Below, piece by piece: positions 1,109-26,818 of a DNA stretch of 64,000 nucleotides. Location of the stretch: contig NZ_JTFC01000008.1 in the NCBI RefSeq assembly GCF_003991225.1, forward strand, positions 1 through 64,000, read 5' to 3'. This DNA is from Candidatus Kurthia intestinigallinarum. GTDB lineage: Bacteria; Bacillota; Bacilli; Bacillales_A; Planococcaceae. The first letter of the stretch is position 1. The number at the start of each line of letters is the position of its first letter. Under the pieces are notes generated by a model. The model was not told the DNA's origin. It ran no database searches and saw only the letters and a list, made by a program, of their open reading frames with translations. Made by a program: the position numbers and the translations under genes.

Positions 1109-1786
1109 ATGAAGGAACGAATTGTTGTTGTAGAAGATGACATAGATATTTTAGAGGTTTTATCAATCTATATTGAAAATGCTGGCTTTCAATTATTCAA
1201 AGCATCAACAGTAGCAGATGGAGAACGTATTATTTTGGAAAGTAAGCCGGACGTCATCGTATTAGATGTGAATTTACCTGATGGTACAGGTTTTGAATTA
1301 GCTAAAAAAATCCGCAGTAAGACGAACGCGGTGTTAATGTTTTTAACGGTAAATGAAATGATTGATTATAAGTTAATGGGATTTGAAGTAGGTGCAGATG
1401 ATTATATGACAAAGCCGTTTATTCCGAAAGAACTTATCGCAAGAATTCAAGCGCATTTAAAACGTCGTACTTCCAATCAAGATGCGAATGCGTTAACATT
1501 TGATGATTTAACGATTCAATTGGATGAAAAAGAAGTGTACCGTGCAGGAGAACGAATCAATTTATTTACGAAAGAGAAGCAATTACTGTTTTATTTAGTC
1601 GAAAATCGTACGCGTGTCGTAAGTTCAGAGCAGTTGCTTAATACAATTTGGGGCTATGATGGAATTGTTGATCCGAAAACATTGTCTGTACACATTAGTA
1701 CATTGCGCAGGAAAATTGGTGATTCCTCAACGAAACCAAGATGGATTCAAACTATCCGAGGTTTTGGCTATAAATTTAATGAATAA
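1109..1786 (+). CDS. OmpR/PhoB-type response regulator
   Basis: 225-residue regulator with an N-terminal receiver domain (acidic pocket VVEDD near the start, phosphoacceptor Asp in VIVLDVNLPDG, Lys in DDYMTKPF) and a C-terminal winged-helix DNA-binding domain ending IQTIRGFGYKF. I chose the ATG at 1109, preceded by AGGAGAGG at 1090-1097, rather than an in-frame ATG at 1070, because the receiver fold starts directly there (MKERIVVVEDD). It lies 32 bp upstream of the giant sensor kinase and is presumably its phosphorylation target. The DNA targets are unknown; the HD-GYP-like genes just downstream are natural candidates. Cytoplasmic. Confidence 0.93.
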   Translation: MKERIVVVEDDIDILEVLSIYIENAGFQLFKASTVADGERIILESKPDVIVLDVNLPDGTGFELAKKIRSKTNAVLMFLTVNEMIDYKLMGFEVGADDYMTKPFIPKELIARIQAHLKRRTSNQDANALTFDDLTIQLDEKEVYRAGERINLFTKEKQLLFYLVENRTRVVSSEQLLNTIWGYDGIVDPKTLSVHISTLRRKIGDSSTKPRWIQTIRGFGYKFNE

Positions 1787-1818
1787 GTTTGAATTTTTTG
1801 CGAATAGGAGTGCTATTG

Positions 1819-4800
1819 ATGGTTAAGAAAACGGAATATATGCCGCAGCTATTGCATCGTAAATATATAGAAATCTATGAATCAATGATGGTATTACAAG
1901 TGATTCCGGATGTTACAACCTTACAGCAGGCACAAGAAAAATTACAATATGTAAAAAAGAATACGGAGCAGTATCCATTTTTGTTTCAACCACTCAACGT
2001 GCTTGAATTTAATGGACAATTTTTATTTTTATATGAAGATTTTACAGGCCAATCCCTTCGTCAACTGTTGTTGTCAAAACTGTCATTAAATCAAGTATTG
2101 CAAATTGTAATCGCTATCATTGCTGCAACTGAAAATTTGCATCAGCAAAATACGATATATCAGTTGATTAATCCATCCCATATTTTTGTGAATCCACAAA
2201 CCCTTGAAGTGAAATTATTGGCGCCTGAAACATTAGCACAAGCGACAACAGAGGTAGACTGGGCTTATTTGGCACCAGAACAAACAGGACGCATCGACCA
2301 AAAAAGTGATGAACGTGTGGATTTATATGCAATTGGGGCATTACTTTATGAAATGATTGCCGATAAGCCCCTTTTTGAAGCGGATACAGAGCAAGAATAT
2401 GTATTTGATATTTTGACAAAACAAGTTGATCACACGGTGATTGTACAAAAAAGTCGTATGCCGATTTTAGGAAATATCGTCCAAAAATTAATTGCAAAGA
2501 GTTCGGGTGAGCGTTACCAAACAGCAAGTAGTTTAAAGTATGACTTAATTCGTGTTTTCGAAGCGCTTGCACAAGGGAAAATGAATATAGATTTTCAGCT
2601 TGCTGAAATGGAACAACACTCGGATATGACGGTTGATTCAAAATTATATGGACGTACAACAGAGAAGCAAATGCTTGAACGCGCATTTCAACGTGTTGTC
2701 AAAGGGGATGGTCAAGTTGTCTTTTTGGTGGGTGCATCAGGGACTGGAAAATCTTCGCTTGCAAAATCGATTATGGAACAAACTTTTTATGCAAAAGGAT
2801 ATTTTATTGAAGGGAAATTTGATCAGTTAAAAAAACAGCATACGTTCGCTCCAGTTGTGGCACCTTTTCGCGATTTATTAAAACAAGTGTATTTAGCAGG
2901 TGATGCCGAAATTTCACGTTTTAAACAAGGTATCAAGCAAGTGGATTTAATCGTTATGGATAGTTTGCTTCAACTCATTCCAGAATTATCCTGGTTCATA
3001 TCAAAAACAACGAAAATTATTGATGACCGCGAACAAGCAACACAACAAATTTATGCGTATATTTTTTCTTCATTGCAAAAATTACTTACTGTTTTTGCAA
3101 CGAAGAAGCGCCCGCTCGTATTTTTTGTTGATGACTTACAATGGGCGGATGATATTGTTGTCGATTTGTTTAAGAAAATTTGTGCATATCATGATAGTGG
3201 CTATTTATTATTTATTGTAGCTATGCGTGATGAGGCATCTACAAAAAATCGTCTTATGGAGTGGCAACAAGAATTAGAAAATTATAGCACCATTCAATTA
3301 GGATTACTGGAGCTTTCAGCTATTGAAGAATGGGTGAAAGCAGTATTAGGCGAAGGTCCGACTGCATATGAAATCGCTAAATATTTAGCGCGTTTAACAC
3401 AGGGCAATCCATATTTTATTGCTGAGGCTTTTCGAATGCTATTAAAAACAAAGATTCTTTTTTATGAGGCAGCGACTGCAAGCTGGCATTATGATGCCCA
3501 AAAATTAAATGGTATTGTGACGAGTGACGGTTTATCAGAATTTATTACCCGACGAGTTGATTTATTGGAGCCGCATTTAAAATATATTTTGCAAACAGCT
3601 GCTTGTTTTGGGCAAACATTTGAATTTCAATTATTACTGAAGTTGTTAGATGTTCCGTATTATAATTTATTAAGTGATTTACATATATTAATGGAGCGTG
3701 GGTTTATACGAATGCGCAGTGTATACCAACGTACGCTACCAAATGAAAAACAACTATTCCAGTTTGTTCATGATGGTGTTCAACAGGCCGTTTATAATTC
3801 TATCCCTGAAACAGAGAGTATGTCGATACATTTTTCGATTGGAAAACTATTGCAAAAAGAAAATAATGGTGTGGAATTATTAGAAGAAATTGTGCGACAA
3901 CTGAATTACTGTAAGAGTCGTTTAAGTACGATTGAGCATGAGCAGCTGGCATTATGGAATCATCAATTAGGTGTTCTAGCAAAGTCGGCTGGGCTTGTAC
4001 AAAATGCACGTTATTATTTTTTAGAAAGTAAAACATTATTACCTACAGACTGCTGGGAACGGTTACGAGTGGAAACTTTGCAAATTTATATGGATCTTGC
4101 AGAGTGTGAAGGTGTATTAATGCATATAGACGAATCGAATGACTATATGAATGAGGCGTTGACTCATGCGGAAACAAAGCTCGAAAAATTACGCGTATAT
4201 TATTTGATGACACGTATGCATCAAGAACATGATTCTTCAGATAAGTTAATTGATATTGGCTTTCGTGCATTAGAACTTGGCAATATGAATATTACAAAAT
4301 CAGTTAAAAAATTAGATATTGTTAAAGAGTTTGTAAAGGTAAAGTGGGCATTACGTCGTAAAACAAATGAGGATTTATTAAATTTGCCCGCCATTGATAA
4401 TGAAGAGATTGATATTCTTATACAAATAATGATTGCATTTAGTCGGTTATCTTCACATCCGAATATTTCAGCGATGCTATTTTTACGTTTACTTCGTTTG
4501 CAGTTGAAATATGGTGCTTCTACGCAGGCGCCTATCGTTTATTGTAATTATGCATTAATACTCATTTCAGGGTTTGATGATATTGAAGGTGCGCTACGTT
4601 TTGGAAGTCTAGCAAAAGAGTTAGCGGATGCTTCAGAGGATATTTATATTAAGGCGCGCGTATATTTTATTTATAGTATTTTCCTACATCATTGGCAGCA
4701 TGATTTACCATCAGCTATTGAATTAATGCGCCAAAGTCAGTTATGTACAAATGAATTAGGGATGAACTATATTACGACATCGCATTCTTGTTTTGTTTGT

Positions 4801-6855
4801 AATACACGGTTTTTATCAGGCGATTCACTAGTGGATGTGCAACAGGAAATCGTGACTCAACAGGACCGTTATGGTCAGCATCCGAATGCCTTAGCAGAGG
4901 ACTTTTTAGCAGAATTGCAGTATTGGATTGAAGCGTTACGAAACGGTGATATTGTACCTGAATATCATATGCCGATTACGCTTGAAGATGAGGCGATGGT
5001 GAAAGCTATGCATTATATCTTGCGTATTCAAATGGCCTATTTCTTTAATGATTGTACAGCACAAGAGGAATTGCTCATGGAGTTAGAAAAACAAAAGCAT
5101 GAAATTATCTCACTACCAATTGCACCATATTACTATTTCTTTAGAGCATTACATCAATTTGATCGACTGCGAGAGGATATTTTACCGCGTAAGGCGTTGT
5201 TGAAGGCTGTACGTGAAATTAAGGAAAGCTTATATAAATTTAAAATTTGGAGTACCAAAGCACCGCATCAATATGAGCATTTATATATGCTATTGGTGGC
5301 TGAAAATGAGTACCGTAAACAAATGTATGAGGAAGCAGCATTACGATATGATCGTGCGATTCAATTATCAAAAATTTATCACTATGTGCACCATGAGGCG
5401 ATTTTTTATGAGCGTGCGGCACGTTTTTATCATAATCAACATGATGAAAAGAAAACGCAGCGCTATGTAGCTCAAAGTATTCAAAAGGTGCGTTTATGGG
5501 GGGCATCAGTTATTGCAGAGCGCCTCGTAGAACTATATACACATTATATTTTACCAGAAGAAACAACAACATCGAATGTGCCAGTTGATAGATTGGCTAT
5601 ATTTGAAGCAACAGAATCATTAGCACGTGAAACGACGATTGAAGAGGTTTATGAGCGCCTACTTAAATTATTAATGCGCCAGGCTAATGCGACGGCAGTC
5701 CATTTTATTAAAAAGCAAGAAGATGAATGGTGTGTCACAGCCTCTCTTTTAAGAGAGCAAGGACCAATACAATTAAATATGATTACAAAGCCATTAACGG
5801 CAGCGCAGCTTGTGATGATTCATGAAGTGCAACAGCGAACACAGCCACTTATATTGCGTGAAAGTACGGATGAGGAAATTCGTTTATATGATAATACAGC
5901 AAAAACATTAATTTGTATGGCAATTCAATATAAAGGAGAAACGAGGGCTTTTTTATATTTAGAAAATCAGTATGTTGAACATGTTTTCAAAGTTGTTGAT
6001 ATGGATATTTTACGTCAGATTGCCTTGCAGTTATTAATTGCAGTTGAAAATGCGGAAGTATATGCAGATTTAGAAAATCGAGTGACATTGCGTACAAATG
6101 AGTTAGAAGAGAGAAATATGGATTTACAAATAGCGATGGGGCGTCTTGAAATGAGTGAGCAGGAGCGTAAACAACTACTACAAAGTGTCTCCCATGAGTT
6201 ACGATCACCAATTACTTCTACACTTGGCTATATTGAAGCAATTTTGGATGGTGTTGTAACAGATGAACAACAGCAAATGAAATATTTAGAACGCAGTAAA
6301 ATGCGGTTATTAAATTTGAATGAGTTGATTCGTGATTTATTTGATTTAGCAAAATTAGAAGCAGGGCGTTTAGATTTCCATTATACACAGTTACCGGCAC
6401 AACAATTGTATGAATCTTTATGCTATAACTATGCAGAGGATGTTGCAAGGGCTGGGTTGATATATGATACAACAAGCACTGTTTCTGCAGAGATTTTGGT
6501 TGTAGTAGATGTAAAACGAATCGAGCAGGTTTTTGTTAATTTAATGACAAATGCGCTGAAATATACAGATAAAGGATATATTTCATTTAGTATGCATGTT
6601 GAAGATGAGTATGTCATATTTGAAATTAAAGATAGCGGCATCGGCATTCCAGCGAAGGATCTGCCTTATATTTTCCAAAGTAATTATCGTGCGAGCAATA
6701 GTAAGCATCGTGATTCACATGGTATTGGATTAGCTATTTGTAAGAAAATTGTAGAAGAACATAAAGGAATGATCGAAGCAAAAAGTGAAGAATCAGAGGG
6801 TACATGTATTCGATTTAAGTTACCGACCGATAATGAGTCTTTAGACTATAAATAA
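1819..6855 (+). CDS. Giant multidomain sensor: pseudokinase - AAA ATPase - helical repeats - GAF - histidine kinase
   Basis: 1678 residues. ATG at 1819 is chosen over the upstream in-frame TTG (1789) because of AGGAG at 1806-1810. Domain order: a Ser/Thr-kinase-like domain (about 10-260) with an APEQ and a DLYAIG motif but without the catalytic HRD (reads YQLINP) or DFG, so probably a pseudokinase; an AAA/NTPase domain with Walker A GASGTGKSS (about 305-313) and Walker B FFVDDLQWADD (about 435-445); a long helical, probably TPR-like region; a GAF-like domain (about 1260-1410); then a coiled coil, the H-box SVSHELRSP (His about 1459) and an ATPase domain with NALKY, DSGIGIP and GIGLAI. No membrane segment is evident, so it should sense a cytoplasmic signal. 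Autophosphorylation and transfer to the upstream response regulator is inferred from adjacency. Confidence 0.88.
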   Translation: MVKKTEYMPQLLHRKYIEIYESMMVLQVIPDVTTLQQAQEKLQYVKKNTEQYPFLFQPLNVLEFNGQFLFLYEDFTGQSLRQLLLSKLSLNQVLQIVIAIIAATENLHQQNTIYQLINPSHIFVNPQTLEVKLLAPETLAQATTEVDWAYLAPEQTGRIDQKSDERVDLYAIGALLYEMIADKPLFEADTEQEYVFDILTKQVDHTVIVQKSRMPILGNIVQKLIAKSSGERYQTASSLKYDLIRVFEALAQGKMNIDFQLAEMEQHSDMTVDSKLYGRTTEKQMLERAFQRVVKGDGQVVFLVGASGTGKSSLAKSIMEQTFYAKGYFIEGKFDQLKKQHTFAPVVAPFRDLLKQVYLAGDAEISRFKQGIKQVDLIVMDSLLQLIPELSWFISKTTKIIDDREQATQQIYAYIFSSLQKLLTVFATKKRPLVFFVDDLQWADDIVVDLFKKICAYHDSGYLLFIVAMRDEASTKNRLMEWQQELENYSTIQLGLLELSAIEEWVKAVLGEGPTAYEIAKYLARLTQGNPYFIAEAFRMLLKTKILFYEAATASWHYDAQKLNGIVTSDGLSEFITRRVDLLEPHLKYILQTAACFGQTFEFQLLLKLLDVPYYNLLSDLHILMERGFIRMRSVYQRTLPNEKQLFQFVHDGVQQAVYNSIPETESMSIHFSIGKLLQKENNGVELLEEIVRQLNYCKSRLSTIEHEQLALWNHQLGVLAKSAGLVQNARYYFLESKTLLPTDCWERLRVETLQIYMDLAECEGVLMHIDESNDYMNEALTHAETKLEKLRVYYLMTRMHQEHDSSDKLIDIGFRALELGNMNITKSVKKLDIVKEFVKVKWALRRKTNEDLLNLPAIDNEEIDILIQIMIAFSRLSSHPNISAMLFLRLLRLQLKYGASTQAPIVYCNYALILISGFDDIEGALRFGSLAKELADASEDIYIKARVYFIYSIFLHHWQHDLPSAIELMRQSQLCTNELGMNYITTSHSCFVCNTRFLSGDSLVDVQQEIVTQQDRYGQHPNALAEDFLAELQYWIEALRNGDIVPEYHMPITLEDEAMVKAMHYILRIQMAYFFNDCTAQEELLMELEKQKHEIISLPIAPYYYFFRALHQFDRLREDILPRKALLKAVREIKESLYKFKIWSTKAPHQYEHLYMLLVAENEYRKQMYEEAALRYDRAIQLSKIYHYVHHEAIFYERAARFYHNQHDEKKTQRYVAQSIQKVRLWGASVIAERLVELYTHYILPEETTTSNVPVDRLAIFEATESLARETTIEEVYERLLKLLMRQANATAVHFIKKQEDEWCVTASLLREQGPIQLNMITKPLTAAQLVMIHEVQQRTQPLILRESTDEEIRLYDNTAKTLICMAIQYKGETRAFLYLENQYVEHVFKVVDMDILRQIALQLLIAVENAEVYADLENRVTLRTNELEERNMDLQIAMGRLEMSEQERKQLLQSVSHELRSPITSTLGYIEAILDGVVTDEQQQMKYLERSKMRLLNLNELIRDLFDLAKLEAGRLDFHYTQLPAQQLYESLCYNYAEDVARAGLIYDTTSTVSAEILVVVDVKRIEQVFVNLMTNALKYTDKGYISFSMHVEDEYVIFEIKDSGIGIPAKDLPYIFQSNYRASNSKHRDSHGIGLAICKKIVEEHKGMIEAKSEESEGTCIRFKLPTDNESLDYK

Positions 6856-6942
6856 TTAAGTAAAAGATGTGCTGTTTAACGTTGTTTTAACCTTTGAAGA
6901 ATATAGTCTATATACAAACTATATCTAATAGGAGGGGTTTTA

Positions 6943-8550
6943 ATGGCAGTGGCACAAAAAAGCTACGAATACTGCACCGTTCATACTGTGTGTTCAGGAG
7001 ACGAATTATATAGTGATTTACGAGTTGAAAATCAAGTTTGGATGCGTAGTGGGCATATTTTAACAGAACATGAAATTGACTTTTTGAAAAAAAGAAATAT
7101 CAGGACTATTTGCGTGAAACGTAGAAAATTTAATGACATAGACGAGTCATTAAAATCTGTGACGGATTTATTTTTCCAGGCAGTTGGCTACAACAGCTTA
7201 GAGATGCGTTATGGTCGTACATTAAAGGATTCAACAGATATTCAATTTATTAAAGAGTTATTTTTATCATATATGAAAAATGCGCAGTGGCGAGAGCACT
7301 TCTTAATGCTGAAAGATTTTGATGGGTATTTGTATAGACATGCGACAGATGTTTTTACACTGGCAACATTATTTGCAAAGCATGAGAATATGCCAAATAT
7401 TTCTCAATTTGCAATCGGTTATTTACTATATGATATAGGAACAGTCTATACATCGTTACTATTACTGCAAAAAAAGGACCCATTTACGAATGCAGAGAAA
7501 CGTGTCGTGCAGCAACATGTGGAACGAGGTGAGATAATGCTTGAGTCACTAGGGCTTGAGCATGTTTCACATTTTTCAAAGCAACATCATGAAAGAATAG
7601 ATGGAAGTGGCTATCCGTATGCACTAACAGAGGAAGATTTATCAGTAGAAGTGCAACTACTACAAATTGTTGATACGTATTCTGCACTTACAATGAAACG
7701 TGCGCATCAACCCGCAATGTCTGCATCAGAGGCTTTTGAGCATATGTATCGCCTTGGTACACAATTTAACAAGCAATTATTAAATCGTTTTATCGAGTTT
7801 ATTGGTATTTATCCGAAGGGTTCCATTGTTGAATTAACAACAGGTGAAAAGGCTGTTGTAGAAGCCAATAATGAATTGATGCAGCTTTTACCACGCGTAC
7901 GAACAGCGCATAAATCAATGATTTTGCCAATGGATTTAAGTATTACGATTAAACGTTTAGTGTCATATGAAGTAGATACGGCAAAAGAATTATTTACGCA
8001 TTTATCGAATTATTTAATTAAAGGTGATACACAGCACGTACAGCGCTATTATGAACAACTAAAATTATGCTATGCATGTAAAGATTGGAGCACGCAAATT
8101 TTTATTCCAATTTATCATTTACTACAGATGCTAAAACGCACAAATTATTTACAAACAGAGCATTTACAACATGCTTTGTCAAAATTACAGCTGCTATTAG
8201 ATGATACATTACAGCAATTTAGAAATGAAAATGTTGATGAACCAGTACTATTAGTTACGACAAATACAACTGAAAATCCTACACTTATTAAAATTTTCAA
8301 AAGCTTATTATATACACAAGGTTGGTCTGTGTATGCGAAATCAAAAGAATCTTGCGAACAAGTGTTGGAGCAGATGTATCTTGAGCATATTATTACAATT
8401 GGGAATCAGCCGTATCAATTTTCTACTAAGCAACAAAATTTTCATCTAACAGAACCTCAGTTAAATTCACTATTGGAGCATTTTTCCGGTAAATATATGA
8501 CGGGGAAAGAATTAGAAATTTATTTAAATAAGTATAAAAGAACTATTTAA
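6943..8550 (+). CDS. HD-GYP-like protein with altered HD motif
   Basis: 535 residues, ATG preceded by GGAGGGG at 6931-6937. The middle resembles HD-GYP phosphodiesterases of cyclic di-GMP: HHERIDGSGYP is intact at 215-225 and later metal-ligand positions (QQHVERGE, VDTYSAL) are kept. The HD dyad, however, reads LLYDIGT (Tyr163-Asp164) instead of HDIGK, so a metal ligand and the conserved Lys are missing. The N-terminal ~70 residues resemble the small domain often preceding HD-GYP modules. After the HD-GYP part comes a ~200-residue extension shared with the next gene. Activity is doubtful; it may bind rather than cleave the nucleotide. It follows the sensor kinase gene by 87 bp. Confidence 0.8.
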   Translation: MAVAQKSYEYCTVHTVCSGDELYSDLRVENQVWMRSGHILTEHEIDFLKKRNIRTICVKRRKFNDIDESLKSVTDLFFQAVGYNSLEMRYGRTLKDSTDIQFIKELFLSYMKNAQWREHFLMLKDFDGYLYRHATDVFTLATLFAKHENMPNISQFAIGYLLYDIGTVYTSLLLLQKKDPFTNAEKRVVQQHVERGEIMLESLGLEHVSHFSKQHHERIDGSGYPYALTEEDLSVEVQLLQIVDTYSALTMKRAHQPAMSASEAFEHMYRLGTQFNKQLLNRFIEFIGIYPKGSIVELTTGEKAVVEANNELMQLLPRVRTAHKSMILPMDLSITIKRLVSYEVDTAKELFTHLSNYLIKGDTQHVQRYYEQLKLCYACKDWSTQIFIPIYHLLQMLKRTNYLQTEHLQHALSKLQLLLDDTLQQFRNENVDEPVLLVTTNTTENPTLIKIFKSLLYTQGWSVYAKSKESCEQVLEQMYLEHIITIGNQPYQFSTKQQNFHLTEPQLNSLLEHFSGKYMTGKELEIYLNKYKRTI

Positions 8551-8660
8551 ATGGGTTTTTAGTTCTATTTTATTAAATAATCTGATAATTTAACTATTTT
8601 TTAACCTTTTTCTCTTATTGTAGAGTGTAACAACGTCTATAAAGAAGGGAGAAAGAACGT

Positions 8661-10079
8661 ATGCAACTACAGTTAACGAAGGCTTATCGCCATGTGAATG
8701 TTTTAAGCTCTGGAGATATTATTTGCGAAAATGTAAAAGATGAAAAAAAGTTATTATTGCGTGCAGGCAGAAAATTAACAGACCGTCTTATTTATTTGTT
8801 GAAACTGCATCATATTCGCTATGTCTATGTAGAACAGTCTTTACCACATCAATATGATGTCGAAACACGTACGTTTTTGACAGAATTTTTTAAAATGATA
8901 CGTGCAAATAATGAAAGAAATCGCTATGCACATTTATTTTTGAATAAAGAATATAGTTGTGTGATTCAAACATTATTAGCTGCGTATTTACAAGATAATC
9001 GGTTGCGTGAGGAAATGCAGCATTTAATGCATGATCAGATGTTTTCGCAGGCGGTAGAACAGTTTTCACTGGGCACACTGTTAGCAAAACGTATGGGAAT
9101 GGAACGCTTAGGGGATACGGCAATTGCCTATCTCTTAATACCTTGCGAAGCACTTGATGATACGTATTTAAAGGGTTATTTTGAACGAATTGGACTTGCA
9201 CATCTTTCGCATATTCTAAAGTATCACTGTATAGAGCAGCCCACATTAGATGTTCAGATTTTACAGGTCGTCCATACGTATGTTACGATGACGCGTGAAA
9301 ATTCAATGATTTCTTTGCAAGAAATTTACCATTTAATGCATGAACAAAATCGTTGGAGTAATGAGTTATTGTATCATTTTCGGGAGCTCTTAGAAGCGGG
9401 GGAACGAAAAAAAGAAGGTTTTATGCAGTCGACGCAAACAACAACAGTGGCGACACAAGCATTGCCGGTACGTACGACTATTACATTATGTAAAATGGAG
9501 TCACCAGATTATGAACGACTACTATGTTTATTGCATTATGTTGTAGAGGAACAATATGAGCAAGCAACGACATATGTCCAAGAACTATTAGCGAAATCGA
9601 CACCAGCAGATTGGTTGACGATGATTGTTATGCCGTTGAAGCAGCTTATTGAGGCGGGGGCATATGCACCGGCTGTGGAGCGCTTTATTGATGATTTATT
9701 AATATCGTTATTAAAGGAATTACGCTTACATGGCGAGCAAAAAAATGTGGCCCTACTCATTATTAATAAGAAAATGAAAAACCCACAATTATTAGCACTA
9801 CTTGAAGGGATTTTGCGTACACAAAAATTGACGGTTTATCGGCCACCTTTTATTAAATCGGCGGCACAAATCGAGCGCCTTAAAGAGCATTACGAGGCGC
9901 AGCATATTATTGTCGTTGGTCATGCACCACAACTTGCAACAAATCCAAAGCATTATTACGAATTGCATGAAAATCAATTGGCGAGTCTATTGTATAGCTT
10001 AGCGGGTGAGAGAATTCGTGATTATGCATTTATGAAAAAATTAGATAGGTATAATATGTTGCAGACCGAGAAGAACTAA
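8661..10079 (+). CDS. Degenerate HD-GYP paralogue
   Basis: 472 residues, ATG behind AAGGGAGAAAG. It has the same layout as the preceding gene: an N-terminal domain reading SSGDIICENV and LLLRAGRKLT, a central all-helical part and a matching C-terminal extension (ALLIINKKMKNPQ, HIIVVGHAP). Here the catalytic signature is gone: the HD position reads LLIPCEALDD (158-167) and the HHE-DGSGYP position reads YHCIEQPTLD (188-197). It can hardly be an enzyme. It is best read as a diverged tandem duplicate kept for binding or scaffolding, since the frame is intact over its whole length. A terminator overlaps its stop codon. Confidence 0.72.
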   Translation: MQLQLTKAYRHVNVLSSGDIICENVKDEKKLLLRAGRKLTDRLIYLLKLHHIRYVYVEQSLPHQYDVETRTFLTEFFKMIRANNERNRYAHLFLNKEYSCVIQTLLAAYLQDNRLREEMQHLMHDQMFSQAVEQFSLGTLLAKRMGMERLGDTAIAYLLIPCEALDDTYLKGYFERIGLAHLSHILKYHCIEQPTLDVQILQVVHTYVTMTRENSMISLQEIYHLMHEQNRWSNELLYHFRELLEAGERKKEGFMQSTQTTTVATQALPVRTTITLCKMESPDYERLLCLLHYVVEEQYEQATTYVQELLAKSTPADWLTMIVMPLKQLIEAGAYAPAVERFIDDLLISLLKELRLHGEQKNVALLIINKKMKNPQLLALLEGILRTQKLTVYRPPFIKSAAQIERLKEHYEAQHIIVVGHAPQLATNPKHYYELHENQLASLLYSLAGERIRDYAFMKKLDRYNMLQTEKN

Positions 10080-10095
10080 TTTTCGGTCTTTTTTG
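10063..10095 (+). terminator. Intrinsic terminator overlapping the end of the HD-GYP paralogue gene
   Basis: Arms AGACCGAGAA (10063-10072) and TTTTCGGTCT (10080-10089) pair with one G-T, followed by a run of T. The 5' arm lies within the last codons of the gene. Confidence 0.85.
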
Positions 10096-13225: not shown

Positions 13226-14770
13226 CTATAAATCTCGTGCTTTTTTAATACGCTGCTTATCGACATACATCGCGTCATCTGCAAGCTGATAATAATATTC
13301 AAAATGAGCTGATACGTCAGCGTGTACAATAGCGTAGCCAATACTTGGTGAAATAATAAAGGATAGGTCTTCATACTGGAATGGATTTGACACAAAGCGA
13401 GTCCGTAAATCATCTACAAAACGCATCGCAAATGCCTCGTTACTATCAGGTAAATAAAGCACAAACTCATCGCCGCCTAATCGTGCTAACTCATGTGTTG
13501 GCTGTGCAGCATCGCGTAGTAGTTGTGCAGTAAACTGTAGCACATAATCACCAATTTTATGGCCGTACGTATCATTAATTTGTTTGAATGAATTTAAATC
13601 CATTAAAATCAATGTGCCCATTTTTAGGGTGTTGATTAAGTTCGTCACTTTTGGGATGAAGTATGCGCGATTTGGCAAGTGAGTTAATTGATCCTCATAA
13701 GCGAGTTGATGTAAGCGCTGCTGTTGCTTCATTTCTTCTGTCATATCAAAATAAGATAAGTAATAAAAATAATGATGCTCCTCTTCTAAAATGGAGGCAT
13801 TGACAGATAAAAAATACGCATCATCTGAAAAAGGGTCTTCCATACGAACAATATGATTCGTTAAAATCCCTCTTTTTGTTAATAAATCATAAATTGACCC
13901 ACTATGGTTGAGCGATAAATCATTGAAAAAAAGCTGATGAACAATATTTTCGACGCCGTACTGTTCAATGGGTTCTCGCGCATTGTCGTTAATTTCAGAA
14001 ATACGGAATTCATGGTCTAAAATAACGATACCAATCGGTGCCACCGTGATAAGTTCACGATAACGATTGGCGATGCTCGGCGATAGCTCTAGGTGAACCA
14101 TGCCAGCGCCAACCGCTAATATGCAGGCTACTTGAATGTACATCGACATAAATGGAAATGTCGTTTGAGGTGGAAGAAGCCATTCCACTGTGTAAAATGC
14201 ACCGATAACAATAATGAGTACACTTGAAAAATAATAAAACATTTTCTTTTGAATGCCGCGACGGATTTTTAAAGCGATATAGCTGGCAAAACCAAGCAGG
14301 CCCAATAAGAGGATTGCCGATAAACTATAAACAAGTGATATAAACGGTGTCATCGTATTTTGGAGCCAAATATTCCCGTTTTCAAAGCCTGTCGTTGGCA
14401 GGGGTGCAAAAAATGCACCGATAAAAACCGCTGCTGCAGGAGCGTAAAAAATAAAAGGTGCAAACGGAATCCGTACTTGATTTAAGTTACGAATGAGCCA
14501 ATAGGCAAGGTGCATTAGTGCGCTAAGTGATAAAATGCCAATCGGGGCATGCACATAATTTGTTAAATACGGATGGATGGTTGGCTGTAAATGCGCAAAA
14601 AATATGCTAATAAACGACACCATATAGCAACAGCAGATAAAGGCAATTAGTCGATTTTCTAGACTATGCAACCCGCGCGTTAATACGAATAAACTTAAAC
14701 AAATTAAAATGGCTACTGGCAATAAAAAGGCACAGCAGTAAATTAAAAGCGTGGTCGCATCATACGTCAA
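13226..14770 (-). CDS. Membrane-bound GGDEF protein (diguanylate cyclase), paralogue A
   Basis: 514 residues from TTG at 14770, which has AAAGGGGTG six bases upstream; an in-frame GTG at 14779 would overlap that site. About the first 220 residues form 7-8 membrane helices of the kind found as input modules before histidine kinases. A PAS-like segment (around 235-350: PIGIVILDHEFRISEIND) and a C-terminal GGDEF domain follow. The active-site motif ARLGGDEF is intact, with LMDLNSFKQINDTYGHKIGD before it, so it should make cyclic di-GMP. No RxxD inhibitory site is obvious. It lies 15 bp behind its paralogue and shares its transcript. Confidence 0.9.
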   Translation of the reverse strand: MTYDATTLLIYCCAFLLPVAILICLSLFVLTRGLHSLENRLIAFICCCYMVSFISIFFAHLQPTIHPYLTNYVHAPIGILSLSALMHLAYWLIRNLNQVRIPFAPFIFYAPAAAVFIGAFFAPLPTTGFENGNIWLQNTMTPFISLVYSLSAILLLGLLGFASYIALKIRRGIQKKMFYYFSSVLIIVIGAFYTVEWLLPPQTTFPFMSMYIQVACILAVGAGMVHLELSPSIANRYRELITVAPIGIVILDHEFRISEINDNAREPIEQYGVENIVHQLFFNDLSLNHSGSIYDLLTKRGILTNHIVRMEDPFSDDAYFLSVNASILEEEHHYFYYLSYFDMTEEMKQQQRLHQLAYEDQLTHLPNRAYFIPKVTNLINTLKMGTLILMDLNSFKQINDTYGHKIGDYVLQFTAQLLRDAAQPTHELARLGGDEFVLYLPDSNEAFAMRFVDDLRTRFVSNPFQYEDLSFIISPSIGYAIVHADVSAHFEYYYQLADDAMYVDKQRIKKARDL

Positions 14771-14785
14771 AAGATTCACCCCTTT

Positions 14786-16309
14786 TTAAGCGTTTTTTAA
14801 ATGCTTTTTTTCCTTGTACATATTTAAATCTGCTGTATGAAGCACAGTCTCCAAATTTGTAATCGGTTCCTTAGAAATAGCATATCCGAAGCTAGCGCTA
14901 ATAAAAATTTCATTACCATCTTTTAAGGTAAGTGGCTTTGTTTGACATTGCACTCGTAATGTATAAATTAAGGATTCAATTGTGTCGATGGACGTACAAT
15001 TATGCAAATAAATCGCAAATTCATCTCCACCTAGCCGAGCACTTAAATGAGGTGGGGTGATATATTCTTTAAAAAATGATGCAAAAAGCTGTAATAATTC
15101 ATCTCCAATTTGATGACCATACGTATCATTTACTTGTTTGAAACGATTTAAATCACACAGAATTAAAGTGCCAGGTGTGTTTTTAGTGAGAATATAAGAA
15201 TTAAAATACGTGCGGTTAGACAATGTCGTAATGGAGTCTACATAGGCCATTTCCCTAATTTGCCGTTGGCGTTCGATTTCACTTGTTTGGTCATACCAGA
15301 CTAAGTAATAAAAAGGACCATCATTTAAATAAACAACAGAGGCATTACAAGAAAGATAGGTTGTTCTACCAGTTTCCGCGTGCTGAATCGTTAATAATTG
15401 CCCACGTAATGAATTTTCTTTTACAAGTCGGTCCATAAATGATTGGAACCGCAAAATATTTTCTTTTAGAATAAAAGAATCTTTTGCAGGCATACCTACT
15501 TTAAAATCTGCCCAAATCATTGCAGCATCATTAAAGTCAAATACGCGTTGTTTTTCATCTAGTAGCACAATTGCGTAAGGTGTTAATTTCATCATCGTTT
15601 GATAGCGATTCGCTAAACTTGAGGTAAGGTTAAAACGCAATATACCCCAAAATAGCATCAGCGTCGTGAAAATACCTAAATACAGCGGCCACATTGGTGG
15701 ATAAGGTATAAGCGTGAAAGTCACAATACAGGTAATATACGTCGCAAAAACAATGAGTTGACCGATAAATAAAAAGCGAATTAATCGGAAAATATTACGA
15801 TTGAGGCAGCGACGATAGCCGACGTATAAAATCGGTAACGTTGAGAGTGAAATAGAACCAAATCCGATAAAAAATAATGTGGTATAGAATGGTACATCTC
15901 GGTAATACCAAACGGTGTGCGAATAAAAGTTATCTGAATTAAGACCGATAATTGGAATCATCGCAAGCATGAATACAACAGGTACATAAAAAATAATTGG
16001 CGCGAACCGAAATGGAATCGGTGTATATTTTGCAATTACAATATACATAGTATGCAATGTAAATGAGGCGCCTAGTAAAATAAAAGGTGCTACAATAAAT
16101 TCAGTTAGCCACCAACTTTGATTCATTGGAACCATGTGGCGTACAAATTCGCTTATTAATGCAACTGCGTAGCTGCTAAAAGCATAGCCGATAAGCTTTG
16201 CTTCTTTTATAGAATAAGAGCGCGTGAGAAGAATTGTAATACAGCTAATTAAAAGAATTGCAGGAAGCAAAAAGATAGTTATATATATATATAATGTAGG
16301 GATTGGCAT
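14786..16309 (-). CDS. Membrane-bound GGDEF protein (diguanylate cyclase), paralogue B
   Basis: 507 residues. ATG at 16309 is chosen because GGAGG lies 7 bases upstream; an upstream in-frame TTG would overlap that site. Same architecture as the following gene: 7-8 N-terminal membrane helices, a PAS-like segment (TPYAIVLLDEKQRVFDFND) and a GGDEF domain with intact ARLGGDEF and LCDLNRFKQVNDTYGHQIGD. The two proteins are clearly related over the whole length, so this is a tandem duplication with divergent sensor halves. The HD-GYP-like genes 5 kb away belong to the same signalling chemistry. Confidence 0.9.
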   Translation of the reverse strand: MPIPTLYIYITIFLLPAILLISCITILLTRSYSIKEAKLIGYAFSSYAVALISEFVRHMVPMNQSWWLTEFIVAPFILLGASFTLHTMYIVIAKYTPIPFRFAPIIFYVPVVFMLAMIPIIGLNSDNFYSHTVWYYRDVPFYTTLFFIGFGSISLSTLPILYVGYRRCLNRNIFRLIRFLFIGQLIVFATYITCIVTFTLIPYPPMWPLYLGIFTTLMLFWGILRFNLTSSLANRYQTMMKLTPYAIVLLDEKQRVFDFNDAAMIWADFKVGMPAKDSFILKENILRFQSFMDRLVKENSLRGQLLTIQHAETGRTTYLSCNASVVYLNDGPFYYLVWYDQTSEIERQRQIREMAYVDSITTLSNRTYFNSYILTKNTPGTLILCDLNRFKQVNDTYGHQIGDELLQLFASFFKEYITPPHLSARLGGDEFAIYLHNCTSIDTIESLIYTLRVQCQTKPLTLKDGNEIFISASFGYAISKEPITNLETVLHTADLNMYKEKKHLKNA

Positions 16310-16773
16310 CGTCAAAACCTCCAATAAGGCTTATAAGCATAATTCTATTTTTAATTAGAAAGAAAGGACAATTATGCATAATATATGTATAAGTTTGAGT
16401 GATTTTTTAGAATGCTCTTTTAAATAAAAAAGAAAAAAGGCTAGTGTGCCATTTTAAATATAAAACTTTTCAGCTAATCTATATAGAAAGAAGTCAATGC
16501 TTAACTTTACCCCATCGTAAAACAGAAAAACTAGATAAAATACCCTTAATAATGAATAATTAATTAAGGAGTCTATACTAGCATTATAGAATATAATAAC
16601 TTTAATTTTCAGTTAATTCAGAGATTAGTAATAGTCATAAATACTCTTTTTTTAATATTATTTTTCGTTTAAAAGATAAACATTGAGCATAAAGTATTGT
16701 TTTGCTTTGGTTGTCGTAAATGATATTCAAGTATTGGGGAAAAGGGAATAAAACAAAGGCAAAAGGAGTGATA
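16310..16773. other. AT-rich intergenic region, no gene seen
   Basis: Divergent spacer between the GGDEF pair and the TPR gene. Very AT-rich with many stops on both strands. It should hold promoters for both directions, but I see none with a convincing -35/-10 pair. Confidence 0.5.
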
Positions 16774-24532: not shown

Positions 24533-26818
24533 TTAATTCGTTTGTAATGTTTTTTTGCGTAATGCTTTTGCTGCTTCGACCATATGTTTTAGTGAGGCAA
24601 CGGTTTCAGGTTCCTGGCGTGTTTTTAGGCCACAGTCTGGGTTGACCCAGAAATGATTTGCTGGAATGACCGCAAGACTTTCTTCTAAAATCGTTGTCAT
24701 TTCGTCTGCTGATGGGACACGCGGGCTATGGATATCATAAACACCTAAGCCGATACCATACGGATAAGGATTTTCTTTTAGTGAATGAATTAATTCGCCG
24801 TGGCTACGTGATGTTTCAAGTGAAATGACATCGGCATCAAGTGCGGTAATTGGGTCAATAAAGTCATTAAACTCACAATAGCACATATGTGTGTGAATTT
24901 GTGTCGTAGTATTGACGCTTGACGTGGCAAGCTTGAAGGCATCAATAGCCCAGTTTAAGTAAGCTTGCCAGTTGTCTTGACGCAGCGGTAACCCTTCGCG
25001 TAGTGCAGGCTCATCCACTTGGATAATGCGAATGCCCGCTTCCTCTAATGCATGAATTTCTTTTCGAAGTGCTAGGGCAATTTGTGCTGCGACTACATCA
25101 CGTGGAAGATCATTTCGAACGAATGACCAGTTCAAAATCGTGACAGGCCCAGTTAACATACCTTTCATCCATTTATCGGTATGTTGCTGTGCAAAGACGG
25201 TTTCTTTTACAGTCATTGGCGCAAGCCAGTCGACATCACCGTAAATAATTGGCGGTTTAACGCAGCGTGAGCCATACGAGACGACCCATGCAAATTTAGT
25301 GAACGCAAAGCCAGCTAATTTTTCACCAAAGTATTCAACCATGTCCGTACGTTCAAATTCACCATGTACAAGAACATCTAAATCAATTTCTTCTTGTAAG
25401 GCAATCCAGCGCAATGTTTCAGCATCTAGTTTTGCTTCATATGCCGCGTCGTCTAAATCGCCACGTCGCCAAGCAGCACGCCATGAACGGACTTCTTTTG
25501 ATTGTGGGAAGCTGCCAATTGTTGTCGTTGGGAATAATGGTAAATGAAGTGCCTGTTGTTGTAATGCAAGACGTTCTGTAAATGGGACGGTACGCTTGAA
25601 ATCTTTCTCTTCTAACTTAGCAAGTGCTGTAGACACACTTTCATTTTGACGACTTGCATGATTTTTTAATGCTTCAATGCGCTTCATGCTAGCAGATACC
25701 GCCGTTGGTGTTGGCCACTCACTGCTTTCGATATAGCCACTTACTTCGACAAGTTCACCTAATTTTTCATCACTGAATGCGAGTGCATCTTTTAGCGTAT
25801 CGAAGAGCATTGTTTCATTCGCAACGGTCACCGGGCAGTGCTGCAAGCTACAAGAGGGTTGCAGCCAAATAGCTTGTGGCGATACAAGTGTTTGAACAGC
25901 TTGTACATCTTGTGCAACTTCCTGTAAATTACTTGCCCAAATATCACGACCATTAACCACGCCAAGTGCTAATGTTTTTTGTGGTGGGAAGCCATGCTGA
26001 CGAAGCGCAGCTAAATTTTCTTTTTTGCCATGGATTAAATCTAATCCGATACCAGCCACTGGTAAATTCGTGATGCGTTCAAAATCTGTTAACGCTTCGA
26101 AATAGGTTGTCAGCATCACTTTTGCTTGTGGCACAGCCTCGACAAGTTGTGTATAAATAACTTCTGCTAAGCGACAATCTTCCTCTGATAGGGCAGTAGT
26201 CAAAATCGGCTCCTCTAATTGAATCCACTCTGCTCCAACATCTACAAGTTGCTGTAAAACCTGTGCGTAAAGAGGCAGTAGCTCCAATAAATAGTGGGCA
26301 AGTTCTTTATCACGATAGCCTTTCGTTAATTTAGAGAAGGTCATTGGCCCGATTAGTGTTGGTTTCACGTCAATATCAACCGCTTCTTTTGCCTCTAAGA
26401 ACCAATCTACATAATGATTATGATTTAACTTCAGTGTCGCGCCCTCGTATTCGGGAACGATGTAGTGATAATTAGTATTGAACCATTTTGTCATTTCGCA
26501 AGCGACCGTGTCAGTCGTACCACGAGCCATCGCATAATATGTAGTAAGAGAAGGTACATCTTCTAGTGAGCGATAACGAGATGGGATTAAGTTAAAAAGA
26601 AATGCAAGATCGAGCATACGGTCATACATCGTAAAATCACCAGATGTTACTTGCGTTAGGCCGAGTTTTTGTTGTTTTTTTAAATGGGTAATGCGTAATT
26701 TTTTCCACTCTGCTTGTAATGTATCTTCGCTAATCGCTTGTTTCCAAAATTTTTCTACGAGACGTTTCCATTCGCGGTTTTCTCCGATATACGGGTAACC
26801 AATTGTTGTTGTAATCAT
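24533..26818 (-). CDS. metE: Cobalamin-independent methionine synthase
   Basis: 761 residues, the usual MetE length. It transfers the methyl group of 5-methyltetrahydropteroyl-polyglutamate to homocysteine. Two barrels: the N-terminal half, and the catalytic C-terminal half starting at LFPTTTIGSFPQ. The zinc ligands are visible in THMCYCEF (His and Cys) and NPDCGLKTR (Cys), with QVDEPALREG providing substrate contacts. ATG behind AAAGGAGG. Expression is controlled by a cobalamin riboswitch and terminator upstream, which implies that a B12-dependent MetH exists elsewhere in the genome. Confidence 0.96.
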   Translation of the reverse strand: MITTTIGYPYIGENREWKRLVEKFWKQAISEDTLQAEWKKLRITHLKKQQKLGLTQVTSGDFTMYDRMLDLAFLFNLIPSRYRSLEDVPSLTTYYAMARGTTDTVACEMTKWFNTNYHYIVPEYEGATLKLNHNHYVDWFLEAKEAVDIDVKPTLIGPMTFSKLTKGYRDKELAHYLLELLPLYAQVLQQLVDVGAEWIQLEEPILTTALSEEDCRLAEVIYTQLVEAVPQAKVMLTTYFEALTDFERITNLPVAGIGLDLIHGKKENLAALRQHGFPPQKTLALGVVNGRDIWASNLQEVAQDVQAVQTLVSPQAIWLQPSCSLQHCPVTVANETMLFDTLKDALAFSDEKLGELVEVSGYIESSEWPTPTAVSASMKRIEALKNHASRQNESVSTALAKLEEKDFKRTVPFTERLALQQQALHLPLFPTTTIGSFPQSKEVRSWRAAWRRGDLDDAAYEAKLDAETLRWIALQEEIDLDVLVHGEFERTDMVEYFGEKLAGFAFTKFAWVVSYGSRCVKPPIIYGDVDWLAPMTVKETVFAQQHTDKWMKGMLTGPVTILNWSFVRNDLPRDVVAAQIALALRKEIHALEEAGIRIIQVDEPALREGLPLRQDNWQAYLNWAIDAFKLATSSVNTTTQIHTHMCYCEFNDFIDPITALDADVISLETSRSHGELIHSLKENPYPYGIGLGVYDIHSPRVPSADEMTTILEESLAVIPANHFWVNPDCGLKTRQEPETVASLKHMVEAAKALRKKTLQTN

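Follow-up and report, generated by a model that had tools for sequence, protein, structure and literature searches.

An AAA domain is present in two classes of large sensor kinase, HstK (cbSTKIII) of cyanobacteria and Mak2/Mak3 of fungi. Two HD-GYP proteins with an altered catalytic dyad have also been described. HstK is reported to combine a Ser/Thr-kinase-like N-terminus, a GAF domain and a histidine kinase in a single large chain (PMC2176072), a plan that Mak2/Mak3 share (PMC5383687). DvhD of Desulfovibrio vulgaris, a protein with the HD-GYP fold and a changed HD motif (SQ), is reported in the accessible part of its description to be a receptor of cyclic di-GMP (c-di-GMP) without hydrolysis in vitro (PMC13090378). 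PA2572 of Pseudomonas aeruginosa (YN-GYP) has a changed HD dyad and, in the part of the paper available, showed no detectable c-di-GMP degradation and still had a phenotype (PMC3411652). Here we analysed four adjacent genes of Candidatus Kurthia intestinigallinarum, which encode a response regulator, a giant sensor kinase and two HD-GYP-like proteins, named HDG1 and HDG2. They are located in positions 1-64,000 of contig NZ_JTFC01000008.1 (assembly GCF_003991225.1), and this whole stretch of 64,000 nucleotides is called the window. Genomes compared are labelled G and loci of relatives L.

Our leading but tentative reading is that HDG1 serves the kinase-regulator pair as a non-hydrolytic receptor or adaptor, with HDG2 as a copy that has diverged further. 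The four genes lie in a row, as the first-pass annotation had listed them, all on the + strand and separated by gaps of 32, 87 and 110 bases. The features are as follows.

1109..1786, + strand: OmpR-family response regulator (REC and winged helix); Pfam Response_reg and Trans_reg_C; the orthologue beside the kinase in G003 is 92% identical
1819..6855, + strand: sensor kinase of 1678 residues; Pfam, 28-sequence alignment and wider relatives
6943..8550, + strand: HDG1, 535-residue HD-GYP-like protein with HD changed to YD and K to T; Pfam HD_5, site table and AlphaFold2 (AF2) model
7975..8547, + strand: HDG1 C-terminal extension (from about residue 345), a four-helix bundle and Rossmann-like domain predicted to have a CarH-type cobalamin-binding fold, without DxHxxG; fold search, the L119 bridge and motif check
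8661..10079, + strand: HDG2, 472-residue diverged paralogue that has lost the HD-GYP signature, with both folds still predicted; matches to HDG1 and AF2 model
9477..10076, + strand: HDG2 C-terminal cobalamin-binding-like module, predicted; VIA-align Z 10.9 to CarH over 171 residues at 4.2 A
10063..10089, + strand: terminator-like hairpin of 10 pairs with a T run, which overlaps the HDG2 end; the call is a consensus match and does not prove a terminator

HDG1 matched Pfam HD_5 (E 1.9e-24), with YDIGT in place of HDIGK and with HHE and DGSGYP kept. The reference for the catalytic site was PmGH, for which metal ligands and mutants are described and in which H221A and K225A essentially abolish activity, according to the available part of the report (PMC4159591). 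HDG1 differs at one of the seven metal-ligand positions typical of the family (H221 to Y) and at the lysine (K225 to T); the other six ligands and D183 are kept. HDG2 had no Pfam match. It aligned to HDG1 in two matches (27% identity at 8.9e-11 and 26% at 8.9e-9), and H276 was the only HD, metal-ligand or lysine site of PmGH that could be aligned. Neither protein has the complete HD dyad, His/Asp ligands and lysine of an active HD-GYP phosphodiesterase. Because both positions whose mutation essentially abolishes PmGH activity are changed in HDG1 and gaps in HDG2, loss of hydrolysis in the two proteins is likely from the sequences. The first-pass annotation had described two decaying HD-GYP proteins, with the dyad changed to YD in the first and the whole signature lost in the second. 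Both residue observations were correct; however, HDG1 is not broadly decayed, as one ligand and the lysine are gone.

The same residues could be read in another way, namely that HDG1 has remained a phosphodiesterase whose metal site is altered (a tyrosine ligand, or a one- or two-metal centre), perhaps for another cyclic dinucleotide, with HDG2 as its regulatory subunit. The retained ligands agree with this, and most of the family departs from PmGH anyway through changes at E185 and D308. However, the two PmGH mutations fall exactly at positions changed in HDG1, and we consider this reading improbable.

We then compared the PmGH sites across 44 unique proteins of the family. The table took frames of 400-640 residues, so that shorter copies such as that of G030 were excluded. 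Four frames of 410-475 residues in which the extension is partly or wholly missing (L076, L098, L106 and L154) were kept. H221 was H in 41 proteins, Y in two (HDG1 and the Kurthia senegalensis protein) and a gap in HDG2. K225 was conserved in 41, replaced by T in HDG1 and by N in L097, and a gap in HDG2. As the HD histidine is lost solely in three Kurthia proteins, the system seems to have been built with a normal-looking HD-GYP. All seven kinase-linked proteins of the table outside Kurthia keep HD and K, and six of them keep HH. These counts do not support the earlier idea of a signalling route that is inherently independent of c-di-GMP hydrolysis. The kinase-linked HD-GYP of G157 (L069, 6463-8139) has HN in place of the HH ligand pair, which is an independent departure from the catalytic site.

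To describe the association of the genes, we searched 261 genomes of the taxonomic family, the same set that a search at the level of the order gave, with a kinase threshold of E 1e-150 and found the kinase in 26 of them. The regulator adjoins the kinase in 20 of the 26; it is upstream and co-oriented in the window and G003, and tail-to-tail in the other 18. An HD-GYP protein with the C-terminal extension (extended HD-GYP) stands beside the kinase with a full frame in seven genomes (the window, G160, G157, G164, G047, G035 and G027) and as a truncated or split gene in two (G030 and G039, where assembly or sequencing error is possible). Six genomes have remnants there (G156 with a single 35-residue match, G150, G037, G033, G032 and G028), and none was found in 11 within the stretches fetched. 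Each of the six relatives that have a full frame carries the HD-GYP gene on the upstream side of the kinase; a downstream position is seen only in the window. A four-gene cluster conserved in the window order was rejected, since none of the 25 other kinase-bearing genomes shows it. Thus, the synteny suggested for checking in the first-pass annotation exists as a conserved association, whereas the gene order is rearranged.

It may be explained that the HD-GYP genes are mere neighbours of the kinase, with no functional tie and a position that was simply inherited. Some relatives have no kinase nearby (K. senegalensis L107, L. telephonicus L108 and U. xyleni L110), and most HD-GYP proteins of the family are elsewhere, with nine of the 44 beside the kinase. 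However, the kinase/HD-GYP linkage recurs in three genera with differing order. In Solibacillus, the best match of the regulator is away from the kinase in all six genomes searched, and in five of them it adjoins a second extended HD-GYP, a gene that is missing in G156. Kinase, regulator and extended HD-GYPs are accordingly linked pairwise in varied combinations, which argues for one pathway, and an inherited position without a functional tie appears rather improbable.

In the HD-GYP tree, which was rooted at the midpoint, the nine kinase-linked proteins fall within one set of 12 rows (99/99) together with L095, L096 and L154, and the label "kinase-linked" needs four changes. A group of HDG1, HDG2 and the K. 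senegalensis protein is supported at 99/99. Two of its members, HDG1 and the one from K. senegalensis, have YD and keep the remaining six ligands at 38% identity. HDG2 joins the K. senegalensis protein rather than HDG1 (98/86), but on a very long branch.

The strongest rival to the receptor or adaptor reading, and a serious one, is erosion. It states that HDG1 and HDG2 are former phosphodiesterases that are being lost, and that the working system is the kinase and regulator, as in G003. The repeated loss beside the kinase, seen in the truncated, remnant and unfound copies counted above, agrees with it, as do the lack of a detected HD-GYP in G003 and the long branch of HDG2. However, both frames are uninterrupted and a ribosome-binding-like sequence precedes each start. 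In a neutral simulation with substitutions only, run to 61% identity for HDG1 and 50% for HDG2, none of 200 runs stayed free of stops for either gene. The YD proteins of two Kurthia species both retain the remaining ligands, and both folds are still predicted from the models. Erosion is possible on this evidence, though we think it less probable than a retained role.

Several results weigh against a retained receptor or adaptor. The HD-GYP beside the kinase is broken or a remnant in eight of the 15 genomes that show one. E185 is changed in most of the 44 proteins (most commonly to Y, in 29) and D308 is S in 41, so that even the HD-bearing members are unproven enzymes. The branch of HDG2 is extreme (3.01), and HDG2 as its own query in eight Kurthia genomes gave one other match (E 1e-14). 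The closest relatives found for HDG1 reach an identity of about 38% along the whole protein and 39-43% in partial alignments. Codon-position identities between HDG1 and HDG2 are little above those of controls (position 2: 0.59 versus 0.48-0.49 in unrelated controls). G003, of the same genus, has the regulator and the kinase (73% identical), followed by an unrelated 213-residue frame, the counterpart of the window's aldo-keto reductase (89%) and two GGDEF-type genes (74% and 72%). No HD-GYP was found there (tblastn of the gap was empty), and the HD-GYP partner is therefore dispensable. Conversely, K. senegalensis keeps an HD-GYP and gave no kinase match at 1e-40. The stretch that holds its HD-GYP gene is bounded by matches to the glyoxalase (71%) and the HAD hydrolase (50%) of the window; these are the only shared neighbours, and three other genes lie in the same interval. 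The two patterns indicate that the kinase pair and the HD-GYP are separately dispensable.

The giant kinase follows the HstK-type plan in one chain. Pfam matches were obtained for Pkinase (E 1.2e-11), AAA_16 (1e-26; residues 285-476 of the 1688-residue frame), HisKA and HATPase_c. The GAF domain scores below the Pfam cut-off in the window kinase (E 0.012), whereas L083 and L069 match it clearly (4.3e-11 and 6.4e-10). The helical middle gave no Pfam match above the cut-off, and no membrane span was predicted (no 19-residue segment with a Kyte-Doolittle mean >= 1.9). The histidine kinase part is intact, with the SHELRSP H-box and HATPase_c motifs of a two-component kinase. In the alignment of the window protein with 27 relatives, the H-box histidine was kept in 28/28 and the Walker A lysine in 27/28; other invariant residues were Glu in PEQT and Asp in D.R.DLY of the activation segment. 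The kinase family of the window differs from HstK and Mak2/Mak3 in that HRD and DFG are missing from all 28 sequences, the OmpR regulator is encoded by a separate gene and an HD-GYP gene is linked. The ATP-binding lysine of VAIK is Q in the window, so that none of the active Ser/Thr kinase residues (HRD, DFG, VAIK lysine) is present there. Across the 28 sequences this position is K in 20, Q in seven and H in one, and nucleotide binding is therefore possible for some relatives. This agrees with the make-up first proposed for the protein (a pseudokinase without HRD/DFG, an ATPase, a helical part, a GAF-like part and an intact histidine kinase), with a weak GAF in the window.

Among 11 loci of distant class members that we inspected, L173, L175, L176 and L178 retain HKD[IL]KPxN with DFS or DFG, and L172, L174, L177 and L180 read HKDINPAHI or HKDVNPDHI with SFG or NFG; full loss follows. 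The pseudokinase is thus a family trait and not peculiar to the window gene. In L173, L175, L176 and L178, the match to the window kinase stops before the histidine kinase, and another output domain probably follows. A defence system was rejected, since the 18 PADLOC matches of the kinase (17 to PD-T4-6 and one to mad6) fall on the protein-kinase domain, the mad6 match reaching residue 320; the regulator, HDG1 and HDG2 had no PADLOC match.

AF2 models were obtained for HDG1 (predicted local distance difference test, pLDDT, 84.0) and HDG2 (pLDDT 75.6, predicted template modelling score 0.46), the alignment for HDG2 including HDG1 and relatives. The HD-GYP fold is predicted in HDG1 (Z 16.2 to 9rbz over 182 residues at 4.0 A; Z 15.9 to 4mcw over 173 residues at 2.7 A) and, more weakly, in HDG2 (Z 11.0 to 9rbz over 146 residues at 3.3 A, with no Foldseek match below 1e-3). 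DvhD was the top VIA-align row for both models, and Foldseek ranked Bd1817 first for HDG1 and CarH for HDG2. HDG1 resembles DvhD in its changed dyad, but DvhD has a periplasmic dCache domain and a PAS domain, whereas HDG1 and HDG2 have no membrane span and a cobalamin-binding-like module, and HDG1 keeps most metal ligands. PA2572 differs from both in being fused to REC, and the available text on it mentions no extension of the HDG type (PMC3411652).

In both models the HD-GYP fold is followed by a four-helix bundle and a Rossmann-like domain, in line with the earlier statement that the shared C-terminal extensions are kept. The same two parts make up CarH/LitR, the photocobilins, AerR and the SCHIC domain of AppA. 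Residues 344-532 of HDG1 matched CarH, LitR, photocobilins and AerR over 163-178 residues with Z values of 12.7-14.2, the lowest Foldseek E being 1e-4, and AppA SCHIC with Z 10.8-11.3; helical bundles may reach Z of about 13 in VIA-align from their common arrangement. The best cobalamin row of HDG2 (Z 10.9) is below that chance level for helical parts, with Foldseek E no better than 1.6e-3. A cobalamin-binding (CarH-type) fold is thus predicted for the shared extension, and this is new here. Indirect support from sequence comes from L119 (Bacillus canaveralius), whose match to HDG1 spans the bundle and extends into the last domain (E 1.9e-54; residues 8-472 of the 562 in L119) and which passes Pfam B12-binding PF02310 at 5e-10. 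L119 was the sole pass among 19 relatives scanned: all ten members of set A1 had no Pfam B12 family, and among nine further relatives L111 (PF02607, 0.0067) and L147 (0.17) were below the cut-off. Alignment of the extension with the cobalamin profile by hhalign was weak (3%, E 0.015; 18.5%, E 0.0013 with L119 and L111; unrelated control 0.7%, E 0.081). A sequence search of the Protein Data Bank with the extension profile returned no cobalamin protein and one unrelated match at 0.077.

DxHxxG is the motif that carries the cobalt-ligating His of His-on cobalamin domains; in the MetH alignment it reads DVHDIG. Unlike the CarH group, the HDG extension is fused to an HD-GYP domain and lacks this motif. 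D.H..G was absent from 13/13 extensions, four of which have some His in that loop (L112 reads DDHVQN). Ordinary His-on cobalamin binding is therefore unlikely, and going by the predicted fold, base-on binding, another ligand or pure contact remain as roles. Light sensing through B12 was rejected as unproven, as DxHxxG is absent.

MalT-like AAA/TPR/LuxR regulators occur next to second extended HD-GYPs in L099 (10265-12823), L100, L102 (10904-13429) and L103 (6017-8518), assigned by Pfam for three and by clustering for L100. Such regulators have a DNA-binding output instead of a histidine kinase, and none is present in the window. The idea that extended HD-GYPs always stand beside STAND-type genes failed, since beyond the nine that adjoin the kinase, four of the 44 adjoin a MalT-like gene. 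An ATP-grasp protein is encoded by the 827-residue gene close to the Oceanobacillus copy, for which a MalT-like product had been suspected. Small LuxR-type helix-turn-helix proteins are located upstream of the HD-GYPs in L115 and L120. The record title of L113 (NZ_JADHDX010000008.1) gives Arthrobacter beigongshangensis, yet its HD-GYP and MalT genes are those of G166, which is placed in the Bacillota family; the record name looks wrong.

If HDG1 is a receptor or adaptor, the system may work as follows. The kinase would be a sensor of the HstK/STAND type without a membrane span, in which the pseudokinase would act as regulatory lobe, the AAA ATPase as switch, the GAF and helical parts as sensor and the histidine kinase as output. 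It would phosphorylate the OmpR-type regulator encoded beside it, because the motifs are intact and the genes linked. The ancestral third partner would have been an HD-GYP protein linked to c-di-GMP, with a C-terminal half formed by a cobalamin-binding-type (CarH/SCHIC-like) module, probably a ligand or contact domain. In Kurthia this partner may have lost hydrolysis and survived as a non-hydrolytic receptor or adaptor. By the precedent of DvhD, HDG1 has probably kept the ability to bind c-di-GMP (or pGpG) and would pass this signal on to the kinase/regulator pair. HDG2 would be a tandem copy that has lost the nucleotide site and probably retains only dimerisation or docking. The earlier proposal that enzymatic output was replaced by binding or scaffolding is thus reasonable as a hypothesis for these two proteins, given the likely loss of hydrolysis and the frames kept against the neutral expectation, but it does not describe the system.

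A wider and more doubtful proposal is a novel HD-GYP branch with a cobalamin-fold sensory half without the cobalt-ligating His motif. It would pair with STAND-type sensors (HstK-like kinases or MalT-like regulators) and couple cyclic-dinucleotide status and a small ligand to ATPase switches; in Kurthia the enzyme half would have turned first into a receptor only (HDG1) and later into a copy with no nucleotide site (HDG2). If true, this would give a direct view of an enzyme becoming a signalling adaptor. The family forms a graded series, from HD (41 of 44) through YD with lysine (K. senegalensis) and YD without lysine (HDG1) to a lost signature (HDG2). Part of it stands beside one kinase, and the enzyme-to-receptor step is testable with matched proteins. 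Through its cobalamin fold, the extension hints at a ligand input to HD-GYP proteins that Pfam misses in the majority of members. The association with AAA/STAND kinases suggests a partner for a class of sensor kinases that is large and little studied.

The first-pass annotation knew of no described system of this composition. The parts are described, as seen with HstK, Mak2/Mak3, DvhD and PA2572, whereas no prior description of their combination was found in the literature searched, most subscription papers being outside its coverage. A figure legend in the available part of PMC11796333 lists "PDE" among the domains annotated with cobalamin-binding domains, so some fusions of such domains with phosphodiesterases may already have been noticed. 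The accessible text of PMC12288465 names HD-GYP and B12-binding, mutually unrelated there. By title, the literature on Kurthia and c-di-GMP held nothing on this system.

The starts at 1109 and 1819 fit better than those of the longest frames (1070 and 1789), in which the alignment with G003 begins only at residue 14 for the regulator and residue 11 for the kinase. No + strand terminator-like hairpin was found within the three intergenic gaps, and the best one overlaps the HDG2 end. This arrangement fits a single transcript for the four genes, with the hairpin as its plausible end. Promoter-like sites were rarer than in shuffles (34 versus a mean of 46.6). Upstream of the response regulator, a DDE transposase frame occupies the contig start (47-907, +).

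Two tandem GGDEF-motif proteins with hydrophobic N-terminal halves are encoded at 13226-16324 (-); they are mutually 31% identical over their length, and the G003 GGDEF-type genes are their counterparts. As both motifs are intact, c-di-GMP is likely made in the cell. Three more HD-GYP matches were found elsewhere in the Kurthia genome. The window also holds a cobalamin-independent methionine synthase (24533-26818, -), and a B12-binding_2 match elsewhere in the genome (G000:C13:30533-30751) lies in a 1142-residue frame that is probably MetH.

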